Source: Branchiostoma lanceolatum
Taxonomy: Eukaryota; Chordata; Leptocardii; Amphioxiformes; Branchiostomatidae
DNA: 64,000 bases
Direction of reading: 5' to 3'
Assembly: GCF_035083965.1 (NCBI RefSeq)
Contig: NC_089738.1
Coordinates: forward strand, 13,046,734-13,110,733
Made by a program: the position numbers and the translations under genes
In this document: piece by piece, positions 27,373 through 56,260 of the stretch
Numbering within the stretch: position 1 is the stretch's first letter
Layout: each line of letters opens with the position of its first letter
The notes under the pieces: generated by a model
Told to the model about the DNA's origin: nothing
What the model saw: the letters and a program-made list of their open reading frames with translations, nothing else
Database searches by the model: none

Positions 27373-30300
27373 ATGAAGTTCTATGTCCACCGTGAAGACA
27401 CCCCTCAGTACACAGTTGTGTTCAACTGGGAGGACCAACATGAAGGAACTGTTGGAAGTCTTCTACAGGTAGAGATGCTGAACACTTTTCTATGTCAACC
27501 ATAAAAAATGATAAACAAATAAAAAAAGAATCAGTTTATTAGCTTCATCATCCTTAATTTGTAGTTGAAGTAGACTTCCTACTGATATTTTTCCATGTTT
27601 AAGAAGGTTGAGGCTATTGACAGGATGTCATGTCCATCAGTAAGAATCTTTTTTACTATTGACAGGATGTTTCTGTCGATAAGAGTTTTTCTTGCACTAT
27701 TGACAGGATGTGCAATACAAGTTTGTTTTTTCACTATTGACGGGATGTTCCAGTCAACAGATTAACATCCTGTCAATGGCCATGGCATTTTAAGAACTAA
27801 GCTGCACAGGTACTAAGTCCTTCACTTATCTTTTTAGCAATTTGTACAGTCCTACAACCTGAAGTTCCAAGGAGTTAATGAATTGGATGTTGAAGATGTT
27901 TTTGTCACAAAGTCCCAGAGGTGAGCAATAAGATCCTTGTTGTTTTCAAGGAATGTAAACATGTACTTTTTGTCTTACTTTCTGTTCTGTGTTTGCCCTT
28001 TGTGTCATCTTAAAGTTTGTATTTCAAAACCTTTGTTACCAAATTCCCTTCTGAGTCCTTTTCTAGCTAATAAGCACTTTTCTGAAAGGTGTTGGTAAAA
28101 TTTTATCATTATAGAATAGAATACACTTGTATTTTGGTTTACATAAATCTGTAGATTTTTACATAATGTAAGTTTCTTTTTACAGCTCGAGGCAGGCCAT
28201 TTCCAATGAAGAACAAGTGTCCAGAGCCGTGCGAGACCAAGAGGACATCTTTGTGATGTCCAAAGGGCCACCTGCAGTCATTGGTAATAACTAATTACAT
28301 TTTATTCTCTCCAATCTTTTGTCCACTATTGATCTGTAATAAATACTCCAAAAACACCAATTTTTCTGTCTCTGACAAAATATTTTTCAAACACCCTTAG
28401 CTTCTTCTGATCACCTCCAGGAACAAAAGTATAGTTTTTTTGTGAATCAGTTTGTTTTTGTTTCACTCTTAAACTTTTGATTTATTTTTTACTGTCAGAG
28501 CCATTGCAGAATGTGCAGAGCAGTCCAGTGGGAGTAGAAGAGGATGACAACGGAAACAGAGAAAGCAGGGCTTCATCAGATGAGGCATCTAATGTGGCTG
28601 ATAAGCACTCCTGCAGCCAGACTGATGACGACATAGGTTGGTATCCCCAACCATGTGATGAAATAGCTGGTCTATAGCTAATCCTTGAGCTAATACATGT
28701 ATCAGAAAGTCGAAATTAATTTCAATTTGTAATTTACAATTCTCTCATGCATATGCCAGGCCCATCGTTGTATGTTTCAAGCAACAACCCTGGCATACTG
28801 GCCCGCAATCTTTCCTTTTTGCTGAGTTAGCTCTGGTCAGACGTCATCAGCCAATCATATTGCCACATACAGTCAAGAGGCAACAAGATTGGCTGGTAAC
28901 TTCCCCTCTAGCAACGGCAGGGGAGTGTCTGATTGGCTGAAGGCAAGCCATCACTAACACTGCAGTTAGGACGGAACTCAGGCCAGTACGCCATATATAG
29001 CTGTTGCTTAACATGGCCGGTCATTGCATGAGAGGATGTAACTTACAAGACTGAGTACAGTCAAAACTGGTCAGGTAACCACCTGGTGCAAGCAACCACC
29101 TCCAGCCACAAGCCACATTAAAACAGCCCTTTACATTTTACATAGTTAACCCCTGTCCTGAACAACCACCTGTCCTCAGCAATCATTTTTCCTCCATCCC
29201 TAGAGTGGTTGCTCAATCTAAGTTTGATTGTATAAACAATGTACATTTTGAAGATCTATGTCTTTTTTTTAAAGATCTTGAGGACATGAGAGACTTGCTG
29301 GAAGGAGATTCTCCTGGGGGAGAGCTGAGAAGCAGCCCTCAGAGAAGGCACTCCTGGGAAGTATCCTTTGATGACGTCTCAATAGCCAATCTACAAATAG
29401 CACAACTCAAGAAGGAAAGGACTAAAGAGTAAGTATCATATCTGATCTTGAATGTCAGGTTTCTGAAATTAGTTCATGAGTAATATGATTCTATAAAGAT
29501 AAATTTATCAAGATTGAAAGAGAATTTACGGCAGATTGGTCTACTGATATCTGTCCTGATTCCTGATTCAGAGAAGCCTTTGGTATTTCATAGTATGATG
29601 TTTTTATGAATCCAGCCTGCTATGGCTGTGATTTTTATTGATTGATTTGATTTCTAGTAGATGGTGTAGATTTTCATCTTTAGTTTAGTTTAGGTTAGTT
29701 TAGTTTAGTTGATAGTTTAGCTCAGTTTAGTTTAGTCAAGTTCCAAAATAATATTCTGATGCCCATCGTTATGAGCAATGTCGAGAATCATTTCAAAAGC
29801 AATTCCAATCTATTCGAATTCTTTGAAGTTTCCAGATATCGTACAGAATCTTAAAGGTTTCCTTTTTTTCAACCAAGGCTGAATACAGGACATGATGCTC
29901 AGCACGTCCTGATTGCTAAGTGCGTCCAGAACGCCCAGAGACTGGTCGACCAGAAACACTGTGACAAGGCTGTCAAGATCTACGAACAAGTCAACAGACT
30001 CTTCCCTCACCAGAAGGAGTGTCTGCTGGGCTTGGGTAAGGCTTAAGAATTATTGCAAATTTGTTTATTTTTGCTGTGTTTTCAGTTTGCGATTGAAACA
30101 ACTCAGTACATGTACTACAATTGTAATACATGTACTGTACATTGCAAATAATGCTTTAAAAGATAGAAGCGCCGCAAACATTTCAAATATTGATGCAGTT
30201 TTCAATTTTTTTTTTCTCCTAGCATCCATCTATAGTAGTGCTGACCGCCCAGATAAAGCTCTGGAGTACCTCAGAACAGCTGTAGAGGCTTTTCCTGATC

Positions 30301-33300
30301 ATGCAGACCTCAAGTGCCGGTATGGACAACTAGTTACATTGTATTGCTGTAACAGTAGTAATACAGAATTATTTGAACTGTGAACTTTTAACACTGCCAA
30401 AACCTCCCTTCCGCTTCAACTGCAAAATTAAGTCCCTGCAAAGATAAATAAATTTACAGTATCACATAAAAGCATATCAAACACAGAGCAAGAGATACTT
30501 TTAGCCTATACAAAACTGTTCCAATCACATGACCTTGAACTGTGATATTTGTGACCTTCAGCCTTGCAGACTGCCTGCTTGACCTGGGTCAGGGGAAGGA
30601 GGCAAGTCGACTCCTGTATGAAGCTAAGAACATTCTGGAGAAGAAACCTGACACCAAACCTACACAACTCTTTGATCTTCAGGTGAGTACAAACATATGA
30701 GTTGTTGCTGTTTTTTTATGACTATCAATCATATTTGCAACATGAAAAAGGCAATTTGATACTTATCATACATATAATGGAAGCAAGCTAAATTCATTTC
30801 CACACCACACATACCTCAAAACTGCCCAATAAGACCACTCTGCAGGGCACCGATAAAATCTGATGTATGTGGACAGGTGGTTGCTATAGACAGTATTATT
30901 AAGGCTTGTGGTAATGGAAAAACTATCTAAGGGACCACCAAAAATTGGCCGCATTGGCCAGGTGGTCCTTATGTAAAGGTGCTCACTTGTATTTTGTATT
31001 TCTTGAGAATGAAACAATTCATTACACTGAGCAGCCAAGGCAGCTCTCGCTGGTAAGCAGTTGTAAATACCAGCACTTAAGGATATTGAAGACTAATGTT
31101 GCATTATCATTGTAATTTGTAAATATAATGATTATAGCAACCAATCAGATCCATTAAACCTCATTGGGTTAAGTTGATTATCCAATCTGGCTGTCTCTCA
31201 TTTAGGTGCAACTTGCAAAGGCCTTCATACTGCTGGGGAAACACACAATGGCTCTACAGATGTGCCAGGTAAAATTTTGCTTCTAGGTTTATTATATTCA
31301 GAGCAAAACATTTGAGTCAGTGAACAGAATGGGCATGTATATTTGGAATGCTTCCAAAATTCATTCAGAATAGTTTAAATGCACTTTGAATATCCAAGAT
31401 TAGAACAAAAATTTTTATCATGATAAGAAAAATATTCTGATAACCCCTCAATTACCCCTCTGAACAGTCAGGTGCAACATATTAGATTACAAAAAAACTA
31501 TTGGGCAAACTTCAAAGTGGAATACTAGTAGTGTTAAGAAATATTGGGTTTGTCTTAAAACAATATTCTTGCAAATTATGTTTCTTGATTCGTGTTTATC
31601 AATTTGTAGTGTACCCTTAGCAAGTTCATTTTCCACTTGCTTTGGGCTAAAAATTGACATTGATCTCTGGCAATCATCCCATTCTTTAATTACAACACAG
31701 GCTGTGGTGAAAGAGAAAAAGGACCACCTGGAGGCTCTGTTAGAGTATGCTGAGCTGACGTACAAGATGAGTTCAGCGCATGCCAAGGAGGCCCTGACCA
31801 TCGTCATGACCCTCATGGTCAACAAGAAGGACTGGATGTTGCCCAGAGACAGGCTGGTCAACATGATGAAATACATTCCTAACGGGCTGAAGATCATGGA
31901 GGGGTGAGTTGATCAAGCATTTTCAGTTTGTTACCTTCGTCTAGAAGCTGAGGTTACGTTTTCGGTGCTGTTAGTCTGTGGACAGCAAGAAACTGTGGAT
32001 GGTTTTTTATGATATTTGATGGTTCGTATATACTTATCTCCTGCTCTGGACATACTATATGGTTGTAATTTTTGAGTGGTAGATACAATGTAGCTCATGG
32101 GGTAGAGTGTAAGTGGTGTAGGTTTGACTACCCTAGCTTAACTTTTTGAACTGCAGTAGGCCTTTTTTTTAACTTTGGAAGAAGAGAACTTAAGCAGGGG
32201 TTGATGGATTTTCATTGTCATTGAACAATGTAGGTGCCATTTGCTATAGGCCTCATAGCAAAAAAGCTGTTTTATTATACAAATATTGTGGAAATTATAC
32301 AAATATTGGTTCCTTTTTGTATACCAGGGAAATCCATGAAGCCATCAAGTCAGTTCCTGCTCTGGTGTTCTTGTCCAATGTCTTTAGGGACCATGGAGGT
32401 TTGTTTGTTTGTTTGTTTCTTTGAGCTTTTATTCATTCATGGCACAGCTTTTCATTGAGGTTACGTTAAAGAACCCACCACACATACCGAAAAGAGCAGA
32501 TGTCTTTCCCGGTATGAGTGGATCATTAACCTTACAGTCAGGTCTTGAATAGCTATTTTACAAAACTGGTGTGTTACACTTAAAGGTGTTAAAACACACA
32601 CACAAACACACAAACAAACAGATGTTGTTTTCCCTCAGATGTCTCCAATGCTACCCAGCTCCTGGAGCATGCCATGCAGGTGGAGCCGTCCCACTGTACA
32701 GCCTTCCTCTCACTCATCCACATGTTTGAAGCACAGGACAGGCACGGGGAAGCTTTCAAAAGGATTAGGTAAAGAAAACTCTTGAGATTTTTCCAAAGCA
32801 TCTTGAGATTAAGTCAAATTGATATTTAGCACAAAATTTCAAGATGTTGGAATAGACCTCAAGATTTTTTTCTTTTGGATGAAGCATTGTAATTATGATC
32901 ATGTGACAAAGAAGTTTTTCCCTTTTTGGTGGTCCCTGAAATAGTTTTTCACATTGACTGTCTATCCACCAGATTTTATCGCTCCCCTGAGTGGTCATAT
33001 TGAAATCTCATGTACATAATCTCTTTTTCTACCCAGGACATTCCTGAAGCAGAATCCAGACATGTCCATCGCTGGTCTCGAAAACAAAGTATTCCTGCCA
33101 ATTCTGAAGGCAGTTAAGGAAGACATATATCTCCATGGTGAGCTTACTTCATGGTTGGTCAAAATATACTTTTTTTAGCATTTCGGATGACAACATGTTC
33201 TTTCTACCTCAATGTTTTATAGAAAACATCGCAAGTTGACGCTCCTTGTAGGATGTGTTAGTGACCCTGCCTCTGCATCAAGAGGTTGGGAGTTCAAATC

Positions 33301-36300
33301 CCATTGTGGAATGTCTGTCATGTCTGATAAACGACTAGTTCTCTGATCCTCTGAACACCACTTCCTGTCACTTCTGCGGTGACACCATCTTCCACTCTTC
33401 TGACAGTCTGTATTCAAATAACTACAAATACACACAAGAACACAAACATCCAGACACACCGAAAGAAGCAAAACCTCTGCACACGGAGGCTTTGCTGTCA
33501 AGCCAAGCAGGAAAAAGTTTCATCCGTCCTCCTACAGAAACCAGGTGATCGAGTGCATTGCAGAAGTTTGACTTTTCCTGACACTTAAGTTACAGAGACA
33601 CAGGAATTGAATATGAACACTTGGAAAAAAAGATGCTTGATAGGGCAATGTGGTGTGAGATATGTACTTCTTGTTTGGTCCTGGCTGATACAGGCCGATA
33701 GATGATGATGGTGATGATGAAACTTCTTGTTTGTCCTGTAGCCACATATCCCCGAGTGTCGGGGATCTCTGCTGACATGCAGCCACCCCAGCAGAGAGCC
33801 TACAACGACCAGGAGCTCAACCTGCTGGCTGTCATGTTCACACTGGTGAAAATACTCTTTGTGAAAGGAGCCCTGGGGCTACTGCCTTCTTTCACAAAAC
33901 TGCTCGGTAAGTTTTTTGCTAGCTTGCTTACTTGCTTATGTCGAGTCCAGGTTTCTCCGGTCTCGAGTCGTGATGGCTGCCCATGTGTCTCTGTCCCTCA
34001 TTACCTGGTACATATGGTCAACCTCAAGGACTGTGTTCTCACATTGAAGTGTGTTAATGTAGTTTGCTGCAGGTCTTCCTGGCTTCCTCTTCCCATGCCT
34101 GGGAGTCCAGAGCACCAAGTCAGCAACAAAAATGTTTTTTACTTGTTATGAAAAAAATAAACTATTCGCCAATAGTCAATTTGCCAACTCCAAAGATTGA
34201 ACTCGCGTATTCAACTGAATCGCTCAGTTCTCTTTAGCTATCTGACCCAATTGCTCTGAACTTAATGCACATGTGACATCAGCGGTGGGTTAAAGGTTAT
34301 CAGAAGTCGACATCGCTTGAATATGCACCCAAATTTGTATTATGTACTGTAAATCCATTTGATAGTGCGGTCGGTAATCTTAGCGGTTGCGGGGGAAAAG
34401 GAAATAGTTCACTGCATTTAATTTAACCGAGGGAACAAACATCACTGTCTCAAATGTTAATGATCAAATATTTGCGATGATGAAGTTTTAGCATTTGATT
34501 AGTGACCCTTAGATTAGCTAAAATTAAGTTACAGTTAACAAATCAAGAATTACTGTACATCAAAATTCAGCAGGGATAGGTTTGACTGGCTGATCTATGT
34601 GTCATTTCTCCCCACAGACCCAGCACATGCAGACAGGGACTTACACACGACTCTGATAAGAAATGAAGCGGCATATTACTCTACAATAAGTCAGGTATGG
34701 ACAATAGAACAGCTTAAGTTAGGCCTCAAACCCATCCTATTCTAGCTTCAGTTCGGCCTTCTGATCACTTCTATGCAGAATATAGTCTTGCCCCCATCCC
34801 CATTGAAACATTTGGTCCTTATGTCCTGCATCGTTTTAGGGATCAAATATTTCTCACAAGCAGTGTAACAGGGATTGAGCTTCCAAATGCCTGTTTGAAC
34901 CCTGTTAACATGCTGTCGGTATGACTGGGAGCCAGTCAGAGCTCTTGCCTATACAGTATTGTACTTTGTGCGAATATTCAAATGCCAATCGTTTCTTTAT
35001 TAATGAGGACAGACTATTCTGTGTGGAAACAACCAGAGGAGCATACTAAAGCTAGAATTTGGATGGATAGAGGCTACTAGTTTCTAACTTTTCACTATTG
35101 CATAGTTTAATCACTGGGAGAAATCCAATGGAAAGCCAATGATAAAAGTAACAAATTCAGCACCAAGGACAGGAATAGAACTGGTTACTGGGGCTGAAAT
35201 AGGTGGTTCATTCAAATCAATGACACAAAATGTATCCTGTTAATGTTAATGGGAGATTTCAAGACCATTTAGAATTGAAGATAGTATCAAAGGAGAACAA
35301 TCATCATAGTCTTTTGTAAATAGATGTCAGTAAAAAGGCATAAAAAGCTTGCAGTATCTCTTGTTAGATGGTCACAGTATTCGTAGGAGAAGTATGAGTA
35401 CATCATTAAGACTTTGAAGTTGCACTTTGTGTACAGCTGACACCAAATATGTCTGTCTTTTCAGGTGATGAAAATAAAACTGAACCCCTCCAGTCTGGAG
35501 AACAGCCCCCAGTTTGTGTACATGGCTGGTGACAGTCACTGTATAACTCCGGCATGGAGGTCTATACAGTACAAGGTAAGAATCACATAGTGGCATCGGT
35601 ACCTTCTGAAAACTCCTGTGTATGACTGATGAAGCAGTTTTCATCTTAAGAACAAACATGTACAAGGATATGTCAGAAGAAGGAGGATGTTTTGTCTTTA
35701 AGTGTAGTCTTCTGACTTATTCGATGAAGGGGGAATTATGATCCACCTAAACAATTGTTTTATGGACCCAATTATTTTGTAGACCAGATCTTACTAGAGC
35801 TAACAGTCTTTGGTATTCATGTATAGTTTCATCAGGTTGGTAGCAGAAGGACTAAGTCTACAGCATTGGCAGGTATTCAAATTTGGTTGGGTATCAGAGA
35901 ACCTTATTATCCGGTCTTTCATATTCAAATGAAAATGTGTATCCTCCCCACAGGGTGCTACCCATGTGCTCCACCCCCTTTTGTCCACTGGAACAAAGAT
36001 TTGGCACTTGAGACCCGAAGCCAAATTCTTCACCAAGGAAAACTTCTACAACGTCATGAAGAAGGTGCCGAGGAAGGCCACAGTCATCTTCGTGTTCGGA
36101 GAGATCGATTGTCGTGAGGCTCTGCCTGTGTGCCTGGCCAAGTGCAGATATGATGTGAGTTTTTTTTTGTAATCATCTTCATGTGGGCCTGTATTAACAG
36201 TAATGTATTAATGAGACCATAGTGTGTAGTGAGGAAGGTTACAAACACATGGGATACATCAATGAGGATCTGCATAGGGCACTCCCCACAACATTTAACG

Positions 36301-38083
36301 GATTTAAGCACAGCATGACTCTGAACCAATAGGTTTCAGGTTTGATACTCACCATGCCCCAAAGTTGTGCCCTTTGGAAAGGCACTTTACAAGACCTTCC
36401 CTGACAATTGAGTGATGCCCGCCAAGCTTCTTCGGCGAATCTGTCAAAAAGTGTGGGGAAAAAACGTGGATTTGGTTCGCCGCTGTGCCAACATTGGCAC
36501 ATCTGCAACCAAGAGCCATAATTTTTTTATAGCTCTGAAAAATTAGGTTCTATGGGACATGTTGACATGCTTGAATGACTAGTTTCTATTATTGATATTG
36601 TACTATAACAGTCAATGGAAGATGCTATCAGCAGACTACTAGAGATCTACACCCAGGCTCTGTTGGGACTGAAAAGGAAATACAAGTTCACCATCTACGT
36701 CCACCCTGTTCCTCCTGTACTGGATCTGACGAGGTGAGTAATAAGATATTAGATCATTCAAACAAAATATGGAACTCATCGAGCCATCTCTGAATGATTA
36801 TGATAGTCAAAGTTAACAGAAAGCTAGAATTTTGATATGTAGTTTTACTCTTTTTTTACTTTTGATTAATATTTCTGCATGACTATGTATTCAGGGATCA
36901 TTATTTGAAAATCAGAATGAGAGAGAACAGATAAAAGATTGCTTAAAATTTCCTCATTTGAAATGAATTCTGTACGCAACATTACTCTCCAAGCAGAGTA
37001 TGTCTCGGGGTTGTTTTTTCTGACATTTTCTACGATTATATGTTTATGTAGTTAAAGTGGCCACGATTCCTTTCATTATTGCAGCAACTACTAGGGAAAC
37101 AAAGAATCGCAAAAATGTCACACACCCAAAACAAGGAGACTAAAACATAACCACTGTCTGCTAAGCACATTTTCATGTTTTCTTTGGACCCAGTGGCTTG
37201 GGGCTAGCTAGCTAAACGATGACTTATACTGAACATGACCACCCCCGCCTATGAAGATGTTAAATGCCCAAGCGCTAATGATAATCAGCTTCATGATAAT
37301 TACATTTCAGACCAACTGTGATGAAGTTTAACACGGCCCTGAAGTCCAAGGTTGAAGCCACGTCTGGTCTGCACTGGCTGGACTTTGTAGATGAGCTGCT
37401 GTGTGATCATGGGACCATGCTAGACTCAAAATTTGGTACGTTTGAAGTTTCCATTCTAGTTCATTCTTGAAAACATACATGTCCATTAGGGAAAAAAGGG
37501 TACTGGTACTACCTTTGTAGACCTATTTACAAGTCAAAAAGCAACATTAAATAAAAACAAACAAAATACTTGCAATTTTGTGTACTACATGTTTTGTATT
37601 AGTCAGTAAGTAAACACACATTTCCGTGGGGCACTGCTATTGCCTTTGAAATGTTTACAAGTCAAAAAGCAACTGTTACATTAAATAAGAACAAACAAAA
37701 AAAATTAAATCTCTTCCTCAAAAATTTGATGCACATGTTTGTACTAGTCAGCAAGTAAACACACATGTTGTAAAGGATACCAGTTTCACTTGTGGTTGAA
37801 GAGTCCCTATTCAGTTTGGTTTCTGATGATGAATTTTTCACTTACTTATATCCCTGAAGTATAAATGGAAAAATCCTTCATGAACAGGAAAAATTCAAAT
37901 ACATGATTCAACAACAAGATATCCTGTATATGAAGGTGATGATCCTCCATCTAATCCCAAATCTTTTCTTTTGTCTAAACAGAGTTTGACGGCACACACC
38001 TGCACCCTTGCTATGTGGAGACACTTGAAAAAGCCTTGTCTGAGGCACAGGAGAGAAGAACTACCAGTAGTCCCAGGAAGTGA
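27373..38083 (+). CDS. Ubiquitin-like / TPR / SGNH-hydrolase-like multidomain protein, 804 aa
   Basis: Twenty exons: 27373-27468, 27838-27920, 28186-28283, 28499-28636, 29275-29428, 29878-30035, 30223-30319, 30562-30682, 31206-31268, 31701-31903, 32328-32398, 32639-32768, 33037-33137, 33742-33906, 34618-34694, 35465-35575, 35954-36154, 36612-36733, 37311-37435, 37983-38083. All have GT/AG sites and compatible phases, giving 2415 nt. Residues 1-~92 resemble a ubiquitin/PB1-type fold (MKFYVHREDT..., ending DIFVMSK). Residues ~93-190 are acidic, Ser-rich linker. Residues ~190-540 are helical TPR-like repeats (e.g. DKAVKIYEQVNRLFP, DKALEYLRTAVEAFPDH, ATQLLEHAMQVEPSH). Residues ~600-804 carry SGNH blocks: GDSH at 607-610, FGEIDCRE at ~670-677, DGTHLHP at 774-780 (DxxH = D774/H777). 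A hydrolase or transferase role for the C-terminus is inferred from family motifs. The block III Asn is not obvious (Asp in GEID), so activity is uncertain. The start ATG has A at -3. I do not recognise a named family. Confidence 0.85.
27613..27780. repeat. Intronic ~50-bp repeat built on CTATTGACAGGATGT
   Basis: Four direct copies of CTATTGACAGGATGT (one with a G change) are spaced about 45-55 bp, followed by an inverted copy ACATCCTGTCAATGG. It lies in intron 1 of the TPR-SGNH gene. Confidence 0.65.
28745..29037. mobile_element. ~300-bp foldback element, copy 2 (intron 4 of the TPR-SGNH gene)
   Basis: The outer segments GTTTCAAGCAACAACCCTGG and GCCATATATAGCTGTTGCTT are inverted, and TGGCATACTGGCC near the start pairs with GGCCAGTACGCCA near the end. 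It finishes with CATTGCATGAGAGGAT, the inverse of the start of copy 1. Confidence 0.5.
29057..29232. mobile_element. CAGTC-terminus MITE in intron 4 of the TPR-SGNH gene
   Basis: Starts CAGTCAAAACTGGTCAGGTA and ends AGTTTGATTGTA, an imperfect inverted pair. The interior carries AACCACCTGGTGCAAGCAAC-type words shared with the copy at 54308. It ends 42 bp before exon 5. Confidence 0.55.
29682..29738. repeat. (GTTTA)n simple repeat
   Basis: Imperfect GTTTA/GTTAGTTTA array in intron 5 of the TPR-SGNH gene. Confidence 0.7.
30815..30992. mobile_element. CAGTC-family MITE fragment in intron 8 of the TPR-SGNH gene
   Basis: Shares CAAAACTGCCCAA, GACCACT, GGACAGGTGGT, ATCTAAGGGAC and GGCCAGGTGGTCCTTAT with the 21535 copy. 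Its termini are eroded. Confidence 0.5.
32450..32590. mobile_element. Second SINE-like dispersed repeat, copy in intron 11 of the TPR-SGNH gene
   Basis: Contains GTTAAAGAACCCACCACACA and CTTTCCCGGTATGAGTGGAT, ending in GGTGTGTTACACTTAAAGG and a CA-rich tail before exon 12. Confidence 0.5.
33936..34118 (-). mobile_element. Non-LTR retrotransposon reverse-transcriptase tail fragment
   Basis: The minus-strand translation reads LWTPRHGKRKPGRPAANYI..., then RDRDTWAAITTRDRR. This is the typical C-terminal end of LINE polyproteins after the reverse transcriptase. It is about 60 residues, 5' truncated, in intron 14 of the TPR-SGNH gene and opposite to it. Confidence 0.6.
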
Positions 38084-40815: not shown

Positions 40816-41143
40816 ACCAGTCCGAACTTTGATTTACTGAAAATGTCACTATTCACCGGCTTTACGGGTTCTAGATATGTTCAAATACGACCTATGCTGC
40901 AAACTGAAAGTAAAACTAAGGTAAATTAGTACAAAATATGTGAAAATTCGGGAGATTCTCGGAGCTCTCGAAATCCACTGCTGCTCGCCTCCGCGCCTGC
41001 GCACTTTCCCCGTCGTTCACGTAGCGTCGTTCACCTTTGACCGACCGAAACCAGCTTCCACGAAAAAAGGTTCACTTCCTTTTGGAGTCAAACACAGACG
41101 CAGATCGGTACGTGCTTTTGTTCGATTCTTCTTAAACAGCACG

Positions 41144-43012
41144 ATGGCGAGTAACTTTGAGGGATCCACCAACTTTGACGACCACTTCCTGACGTGTCCA
41201 GTCTGTGTGTTGCACCTGCGAACCATCAATGCCAATGTCAACCACTTGTTGAGACGAGGAGTACAAGGTTTGCCGTGCCAGGCGTCTAGTGAAACCATGC
41301 CCAGGAGCGTTCAGGGCCAAGCCTTCCGCCCTAATAACGGAAACCGAGAAACTTTCTTCAGTCAGCCCCGAAGAGACGAACAGAGCCCAACAGAAATGGG
41401 TCCTGACGCTGAAACCCAGAGGCAAGTCCTACACGACGTGTTAGAGAGAGTGGAACCCCGAGCGAGAGAGGTGAACTTCGCTCTCAATGACGTCAAGATG
41501 GAAATGTTGGAGATGCCAACAATTTCCAAATCCGCGATTGAACAGTCCAACGCCTATTTTGATGACCTCATTGCCTTGCTTCGAAACAGAAAAGACGCCG
41601 CCGCCCAAGAAATTGTTTCAGTCCACGAGAGCGTCGGTTGGTCTTTGCAAACACAGAAAGAAGCGATGGAGTCTGAATTGGCGGGACTGACGAGGGCATC
41701 TGAGTTCTGTAAACAAGCGCTGGAACACGGCGGCGAGGTGGGAGAACAGGAACTAGAGAGGATGGTGGAACTACTGACAACTCCAACCGACCTGACATCC
41801 AAACCAAGTCAAGTCATGTTGCGGAAGAGAAAGTCAGTGGAGGATTTCAGAGATGACGTGGACGAGGCGGTGTGTGCCTACGCACAGCTCAGAGAAAAGG
41901 TGGACGCGTCAAAATGTGCAGTTCAGATCGAACTCGAGCCTGCCGTTGTAGGATTTCTAAAAGTCTCCCAACTCAAGACAGTTGACAGATACGGGCGCCC
42001 GTGTGTTGTGCCTGCAGGTAACATCACAGCCATCTTGAAGGACCCCTCGGGTGAGAGGATACCAACTCACCTGAAGGAGAAGACCAGGGGAGGGTGCAAG
42101 TGGGAGATCTCCTACACACCCGCGAAGGTCACGGGCAATCACCGCTTAGAAGTGGCGGTAAACGGACGGCTTGTGGCGGGAAGTCCGTTCGATGTGTGTG
42201 TGGAAAGCAGCCACAGACCAGTCTTCACGGTGGGATCCGTTACTGAGGTGAAAGACCTTCCCCATCCCACAGATGTAGCAGTGGACATGCTCGGCAACAT
42301 CGCAGTCGTGGAGGAAGCGAACAAGAGGGTCCAGATTTTCGATGTCAAGACCAGTCGGCCACTCCACAGTTTCGCGGTGGATGTTGGTTTCGGTGGGAGT
42401 CCGTGCTGTATTGACATGGACTCAAATGGACGATTCTTTGTGACGTCAGACGGTCAAAACCAAGCCGTCAGGGTGTACTCACAGGATGGAGAACTTGTAG
42501 AGACGTTGAGGACTGGCTACGTGAGGAGTCCGTTTGGAGTGACAGTTCTGAGGGACGGCCGCATGGTGGTGGCGGACACCAAAAGGCAGTCGTGTCTTCT
42601 CCTGCAGCCTGATGGGAGCCTCATCCGGGAGATCGGCAAGGGCTACTTACGGTACCCCTGGTTCACAGCAGTGGACGAGTCACGTGGCCTGGTCTTTGTC
42701 AGCGATCACAGCGCCCATAAAGTATTGGTGTTTGACCTCGAGGGGAAATTCAAGGTCGGCTTCGGTAAAAAGGGCGAGAAAGACGGCGAGTTTCAGAATC
42801 CGTCAGGGATAGCATTAGACCTGGCGGGTAATGTCCTGGTGGTGAGCCGTCTTGACGGCCGTCTGCAGGTGTTCAGGCCGGACGGGAGGTATCTAAGAAC
42901 GGTGGTCAGGATCAGAGGAGGCCACCCCATGGGGATCGTCCTGACGTCGGATGGCTACATAGCTGTGGCGTGCAGCTGGGGAAATCAGACCGAGTTTTAC
43001 AAGTACAACTAA
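41144..43012 (+). CDS. Intronless TRIM-like protein: coiled coil, filamin repeat, NHL propeller; RING mostly missing
   Basis: A 622-residue single-exon reading frame. The ATG at 41144 has a good context (A at -3, G at +4). The frame is open further upstream but offers no ATG there, so this start is preferred. Residues 11-21 read FDDHFLTCPVC, the usual opening of a TRIM RING finger, but no cross-braced Cys/His pattern follows and no B-box is seen. Residues ~90-255 form a coiled coil (BBC region). Residues ~258-353 are a filamin/ABP280 Ig-like repeat (AVQIELEPAVVGF... to GSPFDVCV). Residues ~362-622 form a six-bladed NHL beta-propeller (e.g. FQNPSGIALDLAGNVLVV). This layout matches TRIM2/3/71-type proteins, which use NHL propellers to bind RNA or protein partners. 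Without a RING, ubiquitin-ligase activity is unlikely; a scaffold role is an inference. Lack of introns suggests retroposition of an ancestor. The open frame is clean, so it is not a decayed copy. Confidence 0.9.
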   Translation: MASNFEGSTNFDDHFLTCPVCVLHLRTINANVNHLLRRGVQGLPCQASSETMPRSVQGQAFRPNNGNRETFFSQPRRDEQSPTEMGPDAETQRQVLHDVLERVEPRAREVNFALNDVKMEMLEMPTISKSAIEQSNAYFDDLIALLRNRKDAAAQEIVSVHESVGWSLQTQKEAMESELAGLTRASEFCKQALEHGGEVGEQELERMVELLTTPTDLTSKPSQVMLRKRKSVEDFRDDVDEAVCAYAQLREKVDASKCAVQIELEPAVVGFLKVSQLKTVDRYGRPCVVPAGNITAILKDPSGERIPTHLKEKTRGGCKWEISYTPAKVTGNHRLEVAVNGRLVAGSPFDVCVESSHRPVFTVGSVTEVKDLPHPTDVAVDMLGNIAVVEEANKRVQIFDVKTSRPLHSFAVDVGFGGSPCCIDMDSNGRFFVTSDGQNQAVRVYSQDGELVETLRTGYVRSPFGVTVLRDGRMVVADTKRQSCLLLQPDGSLIREIGKGYLRYPWFTAVDESRGLVFVSDHSAHKVLVFDLEGKFKVGFGKKGEKDGEFQNPSGIALDLAGNVLVVSRLDGRLQVFRPDGRYLRTVVRIRGGHPMGIVLTSDGYIAVACSWGNQTEFYKYN

Positions 43013-45464: not shown

Positions 45465-47816
45465 ATGGGTGTTCTCGGGACCGTGACATGGCTGACCGCC
45501 GCCAGTGCCCTGGGCGCCGCGGTTTTTGCAGCGTACGTGAACTCGTCTCTACCTCCTGACGTCGCAGAACCACGCAAGGTCTTCATCTTCAAGGGACTTG
45601 AGCGAATACGTCACTTTATTGTAAGTTTATATTTCAACATCATTCGCTTGTTCAGACCCTTGTACTGGTGTATTGTGGAACATAGGGCAGCAGATTTCCT
45701 TGCTGTTTCAGTAGCATGGTATGAGGCTGGAGGCCTGCCCGCCTTAGCCCGGGGCCTCCCCACCCCACTTTGCCCCTGACGTGGTCATCTTAGGGGGGAG
45801 GGGGGGGGGGTGCTAAGTTGAAGTATATATTTCAGGGAGGGCTTGCTCGCCCTTTAACGTGCTCTAGGCACCTCCTCGAACACGCATTTTACGTCCCCGC
45901 CGAAAGACGGGTGTAGCCGCAACCGAGATGTCATTGATCCGGAGTCTCCCAGTTAACAACTAATTTAACCCATGAGCTCAACTATGAGGCTCCTACAGTG
46001 TGGATAGATGGACTGCAATTCTAGTTGCGTTAGCAACTTTCTAAAGTGGTTATTGTTAGTCACAGAGGACAAAATAAAGTGTATGCAAGCAAAATTAAAG
46101 TCGTCGTATTCTCACGCACTTTGCTCAGACAATACCGTCTAAATCAATGATTACAGGAGCTATTCCGGTGTGATACCCTGCATGAATTGTCACAGGCATG
46201 GATATACGAGGAGATGGGGTTTGGCATAATGAGATCCCTGCCACTGCAACGGGTGTCACATCCTGACCTGAAAGTTACGGACGCGTCCTTCGATGGCGTC
46301 CGGGTTCGAGTCTACCAACCAAAAGCTCAGAAAACGGCGAAAGGGGGCAAGATGGCTGGTCTACTGTGGTTCCATGGAGGGGGATGGATCATTGGCTCAA
46401 TCGGTACGTTTGGGACATATTTTTCTTGTGTCACACGGCACCATGTATCGTATTTGTAAATCACATTCGTCTAAAAGTTTCGTTTGAGGCTGTTAAAAGA
46501 TTGAGTACGTATCAACTATTGTATTGTAATTTCTGAATTAAAATCAAGGACAGTAACTTACGAATCCGCCAAAAAAGGCTTTCTGTAAGCAAAGCATAAT
46601 AAATTCATATTCCTTTTTCTTTTCAGATTCATGCGACGCTCTTGTCGGACGCATCGCAAACCAGACGGGCGCTGCTGTGGTGTCAGTTGAGTAAGTATCG
46701 ATGATTAGTATGATATAGATATAACATATTAGTACATAGTATATTGCTGACTCCTTTCCACTTGTCCTCTTTCTTTTATTTGCCGTAAATGATTTCACAA
46801 CCAATAACAAAACCTGCCAATATTTTTGCCCGGGTAATCCTTCTGTTTGTACTTCGGGATATTTGTGGTGAGTACAACTCGCCGTATGATTTATGATGAC
46901 ATTTGGTCTGTGGGAAGGTCTTTAATAGGATGACGAAGGTCAGACTTAAGTTTGGGCCTCTAACGACTACCCTAGGTACTGCAGCAAAACTTCCAGTTTT
47001 TCTATCTTTCCTCCTGGACATGCTATGATCTTTTTTTGTTTCAGATATCGGCTGGCCCCTGAACATAAGTTCCCAATTCCGTTTGAAGACTGTCTTACGG
47101 CTACCCAACATTTCCTCCAACACGCCAGTGAGTACGGAGTCGACTCAACAAGAATCGGTGTGGCGGGAGACAGCGCAGGGGGCAACCTGGCTGCCGCGGT
47201 CGCTCTGAGGCTGAATAAGGACGACAAAAAGAAGTTCCCGCCCTTAAAACTCCAAGCCCTCGTATATCCCTCTCTCCAAACGTTCGACTTTCAGACCCCG
47301 TCGTACGTCAGAGGACGCAGTTTCTTCGTTACCCTCCCTTCTGAGGTGACGATTGGACTATGGCTAAGATATCTCAACAACAACATGTCCCTGGTCGACA
47401 CATTCTCTAACAACGGTCACACGGCTGCGCTGAAGAACTCACGCTTTGCCTCTTACGTTGACCGACACTTTCTCGACGAATCCGTGCCAAGATCGACGCC
47501 TGATGAAGACGTCAGCATAGATCTACCAGACGACATTAAGGACATCCTGAATCCCTACTTTTCTCCACTGATGGCAGAAGACGCCGACTTGTCCGGACTG
47601 CCGAACACCTACGTCACTGTTTGTGGGAAGGACGTACTGAGGGATGACGGGATCATGTACGCCAAGAGGCTGGAAATGGCGGGAGTTCAGGTCCAACTGG
47701 TGCGCTACCCGTCAGGCTTCCACGGGATCTTGACCTTCGCATCGGAACCGTTTTACTTTAAGGTCGGAAAACAGATGGAACAGGACTTGACAACGTTCTT
47801 ACGTGATCATCTGTAA
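45465..47816 (+). CDS. Arylacetamide deacetylase-like hydrolase, cluster gene 1 (399 aa)
   Basis: Four exons, 45465-45620, 46196-46403, 46627-46690 and 47045-47816, with consistent GT/AG sites and phases (0, 1, 2). Encodes 399 residues, the usual length for the AADAC/NCEH1 branch of the hormone-sensitive-lipase alpha/beta hydrolases. Residues ~5-25 are a hydrophobic signal anchor, followed by the family motif SLPPDVAEP, which suggests an ER membrane protein with a lumenal catalytic domain. Catalytic features: oxyanion motif HGGGW at 112-116, nucleophile in GDSAGG (Ser186), acid Asp339 in DVLRDDG, and His369 in SGFHG. Family members hydrolyse arylacetamides, xenobiotic esters and lipid esters; the substrate here is unknown. 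The gene lies head-to-tail with two relatives and shares a ~4.3 kb duplicated unit with gene 2. It resembles both AADAC and NCEH1, so no one-to-one symbol is given. Confidence 0.93.
45655..45995 (-). mobile_element. tRNA-derived SINE, copy in intron 1 of hydrolase gene 1
   Basis: Plus-strand sequence runs GGCAGCAGATTTCCTTGCTG ... CCCTTTAACGTGCTC ... ACCTCCTCGAACACG ... CGGAGTCTCCCAGTTAAC. It is homologous to 49985-50185 and 62845-63060, where the tRNA-like head is better kept. Confidence 0.55.
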
Positions 47817-49754: not shown

Positions 49755-52533
49755 ATGGGATTTGTCGGGACTGTGACATGGCTGACCGCCGCCTGTGCCC
49801 TGGGCGCCGCGGTTTTTGCAGCTTACTTGTACTCGTCTCTACCTCCTGACGTCACAGAACCACGCAAAGCCATCATCATCAAGGGACTTGTGCGAACGCG
49901 TCACTTTATTGTAAGTCAATATTTCAACATCATTCGCTCGTTAAGACCGTCGTATGTATAGTGACGCATAACTTTAATAGCAATGTATATTTTTTCTTGG
50001 AGGGCTTGCTAGCCGTTCCCCTTTAACATGCACGAAGAATCTCCTCGAACACGGAACCCCCTTTTACGTCCCTTCCGGAAGAAGGGTGCACCTCAACCAG
50101 GCTGTCCTGCCCAATATTAAATCGGGGTCTTCCAGTTACCAGCTAATTGGAGGCTGCTATCAGCTGAGCTACGCGGACTTCTATTTCATATTTGGTCCTG
50201 TGTTGGAGGAGAGCCGCTCCTCTAGCACGTAAAAGAACCCATAACACTTATCGAAAAGATAAGGGGTCCTTCCCGGTGTGAGCGGATCAAACCTATATGC
50301 CCCAGACATGCATTTTGTTTCTTCAGTACAAACCTGGTGTGTCGCGCCATGAGGTTTACCGGGTATGCAATACAAACAAATACAGTGTATACAAGTCAGT
50401 ATGTTCTCAGGCACTCATTTGCTCAGACAATACCTTTTTAACAATCACAGTAACTATTCTGGTGTGATACCCTGAATTGTTACAGGAGTGGATGTTGGAG
50501 GCGATGGGGTTTAATGCACTTGCCATAACGAGATCGCTGTCGCCGTCACGGGTGTCACATCCTAACCTGGAAGTTAAGGACGCGTCCTTCGATGGCGTCT
50601 GGGTTCGAGTCTACAAACCACCAGCTCAAAAAACGGCGAAAGGAGGCAAGATGGCTGGTCTACTTTGGTTCCATGGAGGAGGCTGGATCATTGGCTCAAT
50701 TGGTAGGTTTGGGAAATATTTTGAAGTCAACATAACTCAAGAACCCCTAAATGGATTATGGTGATATTTTTTATGTGGTTAGGTGCTGGTACGACGAAGG
50801 TCAAGGTCAATTTTGGAGCCACTGGTATATGACCTTGGTACTGTAGCAGAACTTCCAATTTGCATTGCAGGGGCGTTTTTGTTAAAATCTTTGAAGGAGG
50901 ATAACTGAACAAAGGAACATCAGATTTCCGTAATATTCGATATGCAGGTGGCTTAGACAAAAATTTACATAATTTTGTAAGATGTAAATTATGCAGCTTG
51001 GGACTTGATTTGCATAAGTAATGAGGAAATTCTATAATCCCGGTGTTTTGTGCAATATGACTCATGTACATGAATCACATATAGTTTATGACATGTGGAA
51101 CATGACAAATACTTATTATGCGAATAAATCCCTGATTTGCATAATTAATGTAAATGTACTATAATTAATCAAAGTGGTAAATTATTGGACTATCCATATT
51201 GCGACATGTGTAAGTAAGTTAAATCATAGATTATGTGAATGTCGATGTAATTTGCTTTCTATGTGCAAACATAATAAATCTATATTGGTTTCTTTTCAGA
51301 TTCATGCGACGCTCAGGTCGGACGCATCGCAAACCAGACGGGCGCTGTAATGGTGTCAGTTGAGTAAGTATCACGATAATTTTCATGATATGAATATAAG
51401 ATATGAATATATAGGATATTGTTGACACCTTTCCACTTGTCCTCTTTTCTACGTGCCGTGAATAGTTTCAGAACAAAAATTAATACCTGCCAATGTTTTG
51501 CCGGGATAATCCTTCTGCTACTTAGGCCTTACCAGTGCACTTTCCATTTGTCGACGTCTATTATCAAGTCCTTGTCAATGCCTGTGAAATCTAAGAACAG
51601 CCGAATGAATTGTGATGACATTTGGTCTGTGGGAAGGTCTTATGATGACGAAGGTGAGGGGCAAGGTTGGGCCTCCTGTCGACTATCCTAAGTACTGCAG
51701 CAGAACTTCCAGTTTTTCCTATCTTTTCCCCTAAACATGCTGTGGTCTCTTTTTGTTTCAGATATCGGCTGGCCCCTGAACACAACTTCCCAATTCCGTT
51801 TGAAGACTGTCTTACGGCTACCCAACATTTCCTCCAACACGCCAGTGAGTACGGAGTCGACCCGACAAGAATCGGTGTGGCGGGAGACAGCGCAGGGGGC
51901 AACCTGGCTGCCGCAGTCGCTCTGAGGCTGAATAAGGACGACAAAAAGAAGTTCCCGCCCTTAAAACTCCAAGCCCTCGTATATCCCTCTCTCCAAGCGT
52001 TCGACTTTCAGACTCCCTCGTACGTTAGAGGACGCAGTTTCTTCGTTGTCCTCCCCTCTGACGCGATCATTGAACACTGGATAATGTACCTCAACGACAA
52101 CATGTCCCTGGTCGACACATTTTCAAACAACGGCCACACGGCTGCGCTGAAGAACTCACGCTTTGCCTCTTACGTTGACCGACACTTTCTCGACGAATCC
52201 GTACCAAGATCGACGCCTGATGAAGACGTCAGCATAGATCTACCAGAGGACATTAAGGACATCCTGAATCCTTACTTTTCTCCACTGATGGCAGAAGACG
52301 CCGACTTGTCCGGACTGCCGAACACCTACGTCACTGTTTGTGGGACGGACGTACTGAGGGATGACGGGATCATGTACGCCAAGAGGCTGGAAATGGCGGG
52401 AGTTCAGGTCCAACTGGTGCGCTACCCGTCAGGCTTCCACGCCATTATGAGCTTGGCATCGAAACCGTTTTATTTTGAGGTCGGAAAACAGATGGAACAG
52501 GACTTCGCAACGTTCATACGTGATCATCTGTGA
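49755..52533 (+). CDS. Arylacetamide deacetylase-like hydrolase, cluster gene 2 (402 aa)
   Basis: Exons 49755-49910, 50486-50702, 51300-51363 and 51762-52533 match gene 1 in number, size and phase; exon 2 is 9 nt longer (EWMLEAMGFNALAITRSLS). The product is 402 residues: a signal-anchor N-terminus (MGFVGTVTWLTAACALGAAV), HGGGW, GDSAGG, DVLRDDG and SGFHA. The residue after the catalytic His is Ala rather than the Gly of genes 1 and 3. Upstream and intronic sequence is recognisably the same as gene 1, including a SINE in intron 1. The copies therefore arose by tandem DNA duplication, not retroposition. Differences concentrate in a cap-region segment (FFVVLPSDAIIEHWIMYLND) and after the catalytic His, which may alter substrate choice. 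Likely an ER-anchored esterase with intact catalytic residues. Confidence 0.93.
49985..50185 (-). mobile_element. tRNA-derived SINE, copy in intron 1 of hydrolase gene 2
   Basis: On the minus strand it starts GTCCGCGTAGCTCAGCTGAT, which reads like a tRNA 5' half with an A box. The rest matches the copy in gene 1 intron 1 at the corresponding place, so insertion preceded the tandem duplication. Confidence 0.65.
50190..50350. mobile_element. Second SINE-like dispersed repeat, copy in intron 1 of hydrolase gene 2
   Basis: Core words GCACGTAAAAGAACCCATAA, GGGGTCCTTCCCGGTGTGAG and CTGGTGTG recur at 32450-32590 and 53690-53840, and in part at 23170-23320. This copy is absent from gene 1, so it inserted after the duplication or was lost there. 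Confidence 0.5.
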
Positions 52534-53988: not shown

Positions 53989-56260
53989 ATGATGGGTGCC
54001 TGTAAAACCGTGACCTTGCTGACGGCTGTGACCGCTGCGGTTCTGGCCGTGTACGTGTACACGTCACTACCCCCTGACGTCACGGAACCCGGCAAGGTGG
54101 TCATGTTCAAGGCGGTCTTCGTGACTTTCAGCCTCATTGTAAGTCGGCTTGAATAATGTTTCAGACTTTGCACTTCGTTTTCCGTTTAAAGTTTGTTTTT
54201 ACTGACAATGTAATGCCCAGCATTATGCCCGTGTTACAGAATCAGCAACAACAAAACCACTTTGACCGCTAAGATTCAGTGGCTATTGCTCACTTAAAAG
54301 TTTTATACAGTCGAACCTGGTCGCATCAACCACTCAAGAGACTGAGGAAAAGTGTCTAGGAAAGGTGGTTGCTGAGGATGAGTGGTCGCTGGGCGAGGTG
54401 CCGCTATCTTGGTTGTTCAGTGGGGTATACATGCATGGAGACTGAGAAAATGGTTGCTGGTTGGGTAAAACAGGTGGTTGCTTAGCAGAGGGTCTTTATT
54501 ATGTAAAATTGGACGGGACCGTTTTAATGTGCCATGCCTTGTGATTGGAGGCGGTTGGCTGCGCCAGGTGGTTGACCCGTCAGGTTTGACTGTATAAAAA
54601 ACAAACACGTAAACACTGGCCTGGTCCCTACATCTGCTTGGAGACTAATGTCCAATTTGACTTGTGCCCGTACAGGGAAGTGTTTACGAGAAGATGGGCT
54701 TCGGCGAGAGGGCAGACTTCTTCCGCAAGATCGGCCTCAAACCCGCATTCCTGGTCTCAGATTCGAACCTGGAGGTTACCGACTCGTCCTTCAGCGGCGT
54801 CCAAGTTCGGATCTACAGACCACAACTCCAGGAGGGGGCGGGGGGACGCAAGATGACGGGCCTGGTGTACTTTCATGGAGGAGGATGGGTCCTCAGCTCT
54901 GTCTGTACGTTTTGGGAGAACGCTATCTACATCATCAGTTTGTGTGTAATATACAATATTAATAGAGCCGCCATTGCATATTTGCCTAGCCCTTCAGCAT
55001 GCTAAGGTAGCCGTTTGGCAGCAAATTTGTATTGGTAACGGGGTTAGGCAGCAGGGAGAAGGTGGGACATCCCAATGCTGGGTGGGCCATATCAATATGG
55101 CATCTGGCACATTACCAACCATACGATAATTTGCAAAGCAGATTATAAGGAAACGTATCATAATTCCTTTCAGATGCCTACGACCTACTCGTGGGGCGCA
55201 TTGCACAGGGAACAGGAGCTGTGGTCGTGTCAGTGGAGTAAGTTTCGATTATAACTTTATTTTCAGAATTTGTTATTCTATTTTATTTCAAACATAACGT
55301 TACATAGCGGTGCTATATTCAAGCACTTAGCTCATATCAGTGGCACAAGTGGACATAAGACAAAATTGCTTCGAATCCTATACATTTGAGATGTGTTTTT
55401 TTCATATTCAAGTTTGTCTTCGACCAGTACAAGATTACAGCTGTATTTGCTACTTATATGTAACGTTACTGCCTATTTCCAGATATCGAAAAGCCCCTGA
55501 ACACAAGTTCCCCATTCCGTTTGAAGACTGTCTTACGGCTACCCAACATTTCCTCCAACACGCCAGTGAGTACGGAGTCGACCCGACAAGAATCGGTGTG
55601 GCGGGAGACAGTTCAGGAGGCAACCTGGCTGCCGCGGTCGCTCTGAGGCTGAAAAAGGACGACAAAAAGAAGTTCCCGCCCCTAAAACTCCAAGCGCTAA
55701 TCTACCCCGCTCTCCAAGCGTTCGACTTTCAGACACCCTCGTGGGCCAGGGGGCACAGTGTGTACGTAAACCTCCCTGCTAATCTGATGATTGGGTTCTG
55801 GATAAAATACCTCAACAACAACATGTCCCTGGTCGACACATTCTCAAACAACGGCCACACGGCTGCGCTGAAGAAGTCGCGCTTTGCCTCTTTCGTTGAC
55901 CGACACTTTCTCGACGAATCCGTGCCAAGATCGACGCCTGATGAAGACGCCAGCATAGATCTACAAGACGACATTAAGGACATCCTGAATCCCTACTTAT
56001 CTCCGTTGATGGCAGAAGACGCCGACTTGTCCGGACTGCCGAACACCTACGTCACTGTTTGTGGGACGGACGTACTGAGGGATGACGGGATCATGTACGC
56101 CAAGAGGCTGGAAATGGCGGGAGTTCAGGTCCAACTGGTGCGCTACCCGTCAGGCTTCCACGGGATCATGTCCATGGACTTGGCTTTAAAACATTTTGAA
56201 TTTGAGATCGGAAAACAGATGCTACATGACTTGGTAACATATGTTCGAAAGCTGCTCTAA
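53989..56260 (+). CDS. Arylacetamide deacetylase-like hydrolase, cluster gene 3 (about 405 aa)
   Basis: Exons 53989-54138, 54676-54904, 55174-55237 and 55483-56260, with GT/AG sites and the same phases as the other two genes. Two consecutive ATGs (53989 and 53992) are in frame; the second gives the MG start seen in the paralogues and 405 residues. The signal anchor is MGACKTVTLLTAVTAAVLAV. Motifs are HGGGW, GDSSGG (Ser for Ala after the nucleophile), DVLRDDG and SGFHG. Exons 1-3 are clearly diverged from genes 1 and 2 and the upstream sequence is unrelated. Much of exon 4 is nearly identical at the DNA level to gene 1, while the cap segment (HSVYVNLPANLMIGFWIKYL) and the C-terminus (MSMDLALKHFEFEIGKQMLH) are distinct. 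Introns 1 and 2 each carry a MITE. Predicted ER-anchored, catalytically intact esterase. Confidence 0.92.
54308..54592. mobile_element. TA-flanked MITE with CAGTC termini in intron 1 of hydrolase gene 3
   Basis: The left terminus CAGTCGAACCTG and right terminus CAGGTTTGACTG are inverted with one mismatch, flanked by TATA on both sides. The interior repeats the word GGTGGTTGCT and relatives. A mariner-like non-autonomous element is inferred. Relatives are at 21535-21720, 29057-29232, 30815-30992 and 16409-16500. Confidence 0.65.
54991..55062. mobile_element. Third copy of the 72-bp piggyBac-like MITE
   Basis: Runs from CCTTCAGCATGCTAAGGTAG to GGCAGCAGGGAGAAGG, sharing TTTGTATTGGTAACGGGGTT; same 72-bp length as the copy at 7160. 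The flanking TTAA is no longer visible. It lies in intron 2 of hydrolase gene 3. Confidence 0.65.

Follow-up and report, generated by a model that had tools for sequence, protein, structure and literature searches.

We analysed a stretch of 64,000 nucleotides of Branchiostoma lanceolatum DNA (contig NC_089738.1, positions 13,046,734 to 13,110,733 of the forward strand; this whole stretch is referred to as the window), which carries at positions 27373-38083 (+) a gene for a protein with an N-terminal region, a TPR region and a C-terminal SGNH-type domain. This protein almost certainly belongs to a TPR-SGNH family found in bacteria. Splicing of the window sequence yielded a coding region of 2415 nt in 20 exons, encoding 804 residues followed by TGA; all of the 19 introns are GT-AG, their phases fit and the frame is uninterrupted. 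The gene model of the first-pass annotation was thereby rebuilt exactly, and the motif positions proposed there (GDSH 607-610, FGEIDCRE 670-677 and DGTHLHP 774-780) were recovered in the translated model. The gene comprises the following features:

27373..38083 (+), whole coding region from ATG to TGA, with 19 GT-AG introns of fitting phases
27373..28283 (+), exons 1-3, residues 1-92, N-terminal domain, suspected to be ubiquitin-like (DUF7357 E 0.004, below cut-off; PDB best E 0.43)
28499..29428 (+), exons 4-5, residues ~93-190, acidic Ser-rich linker with no Pfam match at E 10; Met143 is a possible alternative start
29878..33137 (+), exons 6-13, residues ~190-504, TPR region (matches at 204-483 with Pfam TPR models and the bacterial TPR-SGNH profile)
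33742..34694 (+), exons 14-15, residues ~504-585, helical linker preceding the SGNH domain, hydrophobic stretch at ~530-555 (Legionella match; hydropathy)
35465..38083 (+), exons 16-20, residues 586-804, SGNH-type domain (110 bits with the bacterial TPR-SGNH profile)
35528..35539 (+), block I, GDSH 607-610, Ser609 being the predicted nucleophile (motif; all 35 aligned bacterial rows keep the Ser and the His)
36095..36118 (+), block III, FGEIDCRE 670-677 (motif; FGEIDCR invariant in the 35 rows, which were themselves fetched by FGEIDCR)
37988..38008 (+), block V, DGTHLHP 774-780, with Asp774 and His777 (motif; Asp and His nearly invariant in the 35 rows)

A TGA is found in frame 9 bases upstream of the ATG at 27373 and, since an acceptor-like CCCCTTTTACAG ends immediately before it, this ATG may be located in a second transcribed exon. 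A tblastn search of the 64-kb window with the protein revealed no second copy of the gene.

Homology of the TPR and SGNH regions, and other features of the window

The TPR region (~204-483) was recognised by Pfam, most clearly by TPR_19 (E 2.2e-19) and TPR_14 (E 9e-17), with TPR models matching from about residue 204 and stretches reaching 470. The C-terminus did not match any family above the cut-off in Pfam, NCBIfam or PHROGs, and Lipase_GDSL and Lipase_GDSL_2 gave no match to the animal domain at E ≤ 10 in Pfam; Lipase_GDSL_2 was matched below the cut-off (E 0.021) by one of three phage relatives. The PDB sequences contained nothing close to the C-terminus of the animal protein (best E 0.29), tblastn of plasmids and phages with the SGNH domain gave chance-level matches only (best E ~1), and viral-contig searches with the animal sequence alone or with the animal-Legionella pair described below gave no confirmed relatives.

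Viral relatives were fetched as DNA encoding FGEIDCR in viral contigs, which gave 30 loci and from these 27 open reading frames (ORFs), most of which contain GDSH, FGEIDCR and DxxHL in this order. A first profile was built from 20 of the viral ORFs, after two without block I, two short ones and three duplicates had been dropped; 11 of the 20 and the animal sequence form alignment A1. With this profile, the animal domain scored 59 bits over ~190 residues, while the best of 2000 shuffled sequences reached 4.5 bits and the best of another 2000 reached 12.5 bits. The match persisted when FGEIDCR was masked (E 1.5e-7, 28 bits; best shuffle in the run 12.5) and when GDSH was masked in addition (E 4e-6). 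The signal of this profile is largely concentrated in the three blocks, because once all of them were masked the match (E 0.017) did not exceed the best shuffle.

The species-genome collection was scanned once for [FLV]xFGEIDCR, a pattern that misses relatives with altered motifs. Of 166 stretches, 62 were confirmed as loci, which fall into two kinds, 21 stand-alone and 41 TPR-type. The TPR-type ORFs are longer, with the TPRs first, and TPR models matched 34 of the 35 that were scanned. Since bacteria encode both parts in one ORF, the TPR-SGNH fusion is real, as the first-pass annotation had proposed for the animal protein. With a profile built from 34 TPR-SGNH domains of bacteria, likewise fetched by FGEIDCR and excluding Legionella, the animal domain scored 110 bits (best of 1000 shuffles ~5), and the full-length bacterial profile matched the animal protein in the order TPR (212-379 and 412-483) then SGNH with 182 bits in total. 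The homology of the animal C-terminus to an SGNH-type family is above chance.

The family shares the signature G[DE]SH / GxKxxHL / FGEIDCR / DxxHL. Ser609 aligns with the family serine, Gly635 of the animal GTKIWHL, a candidate for the block II glycine, with an invariant Gly, and Asp774 and His777 (DGTH 774-777) with the family Asp and His; the S, H, G, K, H, FGEIDCR, D and H of the signature are invariant or nearly so in the 35 bacterial rows, which were selected by FGEIDCR. Alignments A4 and A6 cover 35 of the 41 TPR-type loci. Because a full-length fold search was filled by TPR proteins and uninformative on this part, the SGNH domain was modelled separately for one bacterial member, and the model predicts an SGNH fold close to those of sialate O-acetylesterase and PAF acetylhydrolase. 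The first-pass reading of the C-terminus as SGNH is thus supported by homology and by the predicted fold of a relative.

Several other features were seen by eye in the window. In intron 1 (27600-27790, +), a short repeat around TATTGACAGGATGT occurs in several copies, and close to 27767 there is a copy in inverted orientation. Downstream of the gene, a 695-codon open frame (40925-43009, +) resembles an intronless TRIM/NHL-repeat protein, and three long ORFs that resemble one another and carry GDSAGGN motifs (46950-47813, 51658-52530 and 55331-56257, +) look like exons of a tandem cluster of arylacetamide-deacetylase-like esterases.

Relatives of the protein and their genomic context

The 41 TPR-type loci are mostly proteobacterial or desulfobacterial according to their record titles, and the 21 stand-alone loci are distributed over Chloroflexota, candidate phyla, Bacteroidota, archaea and others. 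The two kinds differ in their spacing: block I and FGEIDCR are 63 residues apart in the animal protein (607 to 670) and in all 39 readable TPR-type loci, but in none of the 21 stand-alone genome loci and in only one of 25 readable viral ORFs. They differ also behind FGEIDCR, where xxEG follows in 37 of the 41 TPR-type loci (two have GG, one has DG, and the Legionella ORF lacks the two residues) and xH in all 21 stand-alone genome loci. The animal and Legionella sequences continue with E(A/G) and are two residues shorter.

The bacterial proteins with FGEIDCRxxEG (e.g. L032, L033, L036 and L064 of Colwellia piezophila) resemble the animal protein in having TPR and SGNH parts in this order in one chain, the 63-residue spacing, GxKxxHL and FGEIDCR, whereas the animal protein differs by an additional N-terminal region and, like the Legionella ORF L031, by lacking two residues after FGEIDCR. 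The stand-alone proteins of phages, Chloroflexota, candidate phyla, Bacteroidota and archaea share with it the three blocks in order, but have another spacing and, in all 21 genome loci, FGEIDCRxH instead of xxEG, and form a separate clade (100/100). Stand-alone GDSH/FGEIDCR proteins are encoded on many phage-type contigs (L001-L030); for two of them searched against PHROGs, the best match was to a family of unknown function, in one of the two (E 0.00024).

Flagellin-like ORFs are present at 12 of the 41 TPR-type loci and at none of the 21 stand-alone genome loci (Fisher p 0.005), a value that overstates the association, because the 12 loci represent about five tree lineages (L043 with the Colwellia group; L036; L038 with L049; L039; L048) and flagella may be missing in many of the stand-alone hosts. 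At five loci (L059, L064, L065, L066 and L067), flagellin-like ORFs flank the gene on both sides. Among the neighbour Pfam families listed (25 of 107, from 83 of 133 neighbour ORFs at 16 loci), Flagellin_N was found eight times, Radical SAM four times, and FlgK, FlaG and MptE-like twice each. The surface-polymer loci that the first-pass annotation had named as the setting of such bacterial proteins were not seen as a general context; the commonest family among the neighbours examined is flagellin.

Phylogenetic position and possible gene transfer

A tree was calculated from 79 rows, i.e. the animal domain and 78 of the 90 family ORFs, leaving out nine fragments or duplicates as well as identical rows; the fragments L053, L063 and L068, which count among the 41 TPR-type loci but are absent from the tree, were assigned to this kind by their FGEIDCRxxEG signature. 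The TPR kind, including the animal domain, was split from the stand-alone kind with a support of 100/100. Tree and profiles thus agree with the earlier impression that the domain is more like bacterial TPR-linked SGNH proteins than animal GDSL lipases, and no Pfam GDSL model matched it. The animal domain pairs with one ORF (L031) from a groundwater metagenome-assembled genome of Legionella longbeachae (100/100), and the tree places this pair inside the TPR clade; an alternative in which the other 37 TPR rows form one clade is not rejected (p-AU 0.25). The Legionella ORF, which is cut by the contig end, is 36% identical over 185 residues, including the region before the SGNH domain and the SGNH start. 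Searches with the animal protein gave no other match among 45 genomes of this genus and 143 of the order. The contig appears bacterial rather than a eukaryotic contaminant, because a Fic-like and a P-type-ATPase-like ORF, identified by eye (L031:2-778, -; L031:3045-5270, +), directly precede the TPR-SGNH ORF.

The branch shared with one Legionella lineage and the patchy bacterial distribution would point to a gene transfer between bacteria and eukaryotes in either direction; a transfer specifically from bacteria into animals was dropped in view of the p-AU of 0.25 for the alternative tree. Legionella takes up host genes, and it comes close to an even possibility that the family is an ordinary old eukaryotic one, present in many invertebrates, from which the Legionella copy was acquired through a eukaryotic host. 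The isolation of this copy among the genomes of its genus and order and the full support of the animal-Legionella pair fit such a history, and the 20 exons would suit a long residence in a eukaryote, but the wider TPR-SGNH family was bacterial in everything searched, in collections that do not include eukaryotes.

Proposed function of the TPR-SGNH protein

We somewhat favour the view that the gene product is an active serine esterase or acyltransferase, in which a TPR superhelix is fused to an SGNH domain; that its substrate is a protein or a protein-linked sugar is a tentative proposal. As in O-GlcNAc transferase, the groove of the TPR superhelix would select a client protein, and Ser609, helped by His777 and Asp774, would attack an acyl ester, so that an O-acyl group, most likely O-acetyl, would be removed from or transferred on the client or a sugar attached to it. 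Because the Asn of the usual GxND is missing, the conserved GxKxxHL and FGEIDCR probably complete the active site. An O-acetylated sugar or protein is suggested as the substrate class because of the fold neighbours and the flagellin loci, and in at least some bacterial lineages the client may be flagellin or its glycan. The animal protein is probably cytosolic, a location that is plausible because it has no hydrophobic stretch at its N-terminus, and its N-terminal region might recruit partners.

Known systems resemble the protein in part. The superhelix of a bacterial homologue matches that of O-GlcNAc transferase (1w3b_A, TM 0.76 by target length), and the likeness to this enzyme and to SPINDLY, whose catalytic domain is a glycosyltransferase, is one of layout only, with a TPR receptor that precedes the catalytic domain at the C-terminus. 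Sialate O-acetylesterase (6xpg, 6njc), PAF acetylhydrolase (1bwp) and rhamnogalacturonan acetylesterase (1deo) share the predicted fold of the bacterial homologue, the Ser and the Asp-x-x-His, but are only ~10-19% identical and carry a block III Asn that, by motif, the animal protein lacks. To our knowledge, none of these three esterases has a TPR part.

Several observations weigh against this proposal. Block III reads GEID in the animal protein and in the fetched family instead of GxND, so that the Asn is absent by motif. The best Foldseek match of the bacterial domain model was moderate (TM 0.49/0.59, root mean square deviation 8.2), and beyond the animal-Legionella pair the closest relatives are ~22-30% identical. 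When 369 genomes from the class to which the Legionella genome belongs were searched with a profile, seven gave a match, among them one of the stand-alone kind (L100), one weak partial match (L101) and three that are probably inactive or altered forms, namely L096 (1477-2895, -) with GDQQ and FGEIDCH, and L098 and L099 without GEID. Moreover, 29 of the 41 TPR-type loci have no flagellin within the stretch of DNA examined, and the immediate neighbours examined at other loci are mixed (e.g. alanine dehydrogenase, peptidases of the M20 and U32 families, a GlmS-like enzyme and a mechanosensitive channel). Finally, the hydropathy of residues ~530-555 reaches 1.99 over 19 residues, above the usual threshold of 1.6 for a membrane helix, and this segment could be membrane-associated.

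The missing Asn and the relatives with broken motifs would also suit a pseudo-enzyme, i.e. an SGNH domain that binds, but does not cleave, an acylated or glycosylated client within a protein serving as TPR scaffold; we regard this as unlikely, since Ser609, Asp774 and His777 are kept and the near-invariant motif residues of the 35 bacterial rows suit an active site.

With regard to the N-terminal region, the sole Pfam match of residues 1-92 was DUF7357, which aligned with residues 2-83 across exons 1-3 below the cut-off (E 0.004-0.005). No ubiquitin-like or PB1 profile of Pfam matched at E ≤ 10, and the PDB sequence search with residues 1-92 gave nothing convincing; their ubiquitin-like nature is unproven. 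Codon scoring did not settle whether exons 1-5 are coding exons of the TPR-SGNH gene. That they stem from another transcript, the true protein being TPR-SGNH only, perhaps from Met143, is improbable: the N-terminus was not seen in any bacterial relative, exons 1, 4 and 5 score better in another frame and Met143 is an available start, but the splice sites and phases join unbroken, DUF7357 spans exons 1-3, if below the cut-off, and the joint score of exons 1-5 (0.083 per codon) is just above the 99th percentile of 150-base intron pieces (0.081).

SGNH domains and TPRs are known, and the bacterial fusion is present in public genomes, its SGNH part being unrecognised by the models that were searched in Pfam, NCBIfam and PHROGs; new is the animal TPR-SGNH protein with its extra N-terminal region, which is quite possibly catalogued elsewhere as an uncharacterised protein. 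Among the open-licence papers listed, no title or abstract beginning was on this protein. The protein points to a TPR-SGNH family whose SGNH part escapes the searched models and for which flagellin offers a testable bacterial context, and the occurrence of the same fusion in an animal gene, together with the patchy bacterial distribution, suits gene transfer. A bolder and rather unlikely idea is that a bacterial flagellin-modifying enzyme was turned in animals into an intracellular O-acyl writer or eraser, in which a receptor like that of O-GlcNAc transferase carries an SGNH head acting on proteins or their sugars. If true, this would be a pathway undescribed in animals as far as our searches reach, and if the enzyme acts on proteins, it would suggest an acyl modification that is open to direct search.

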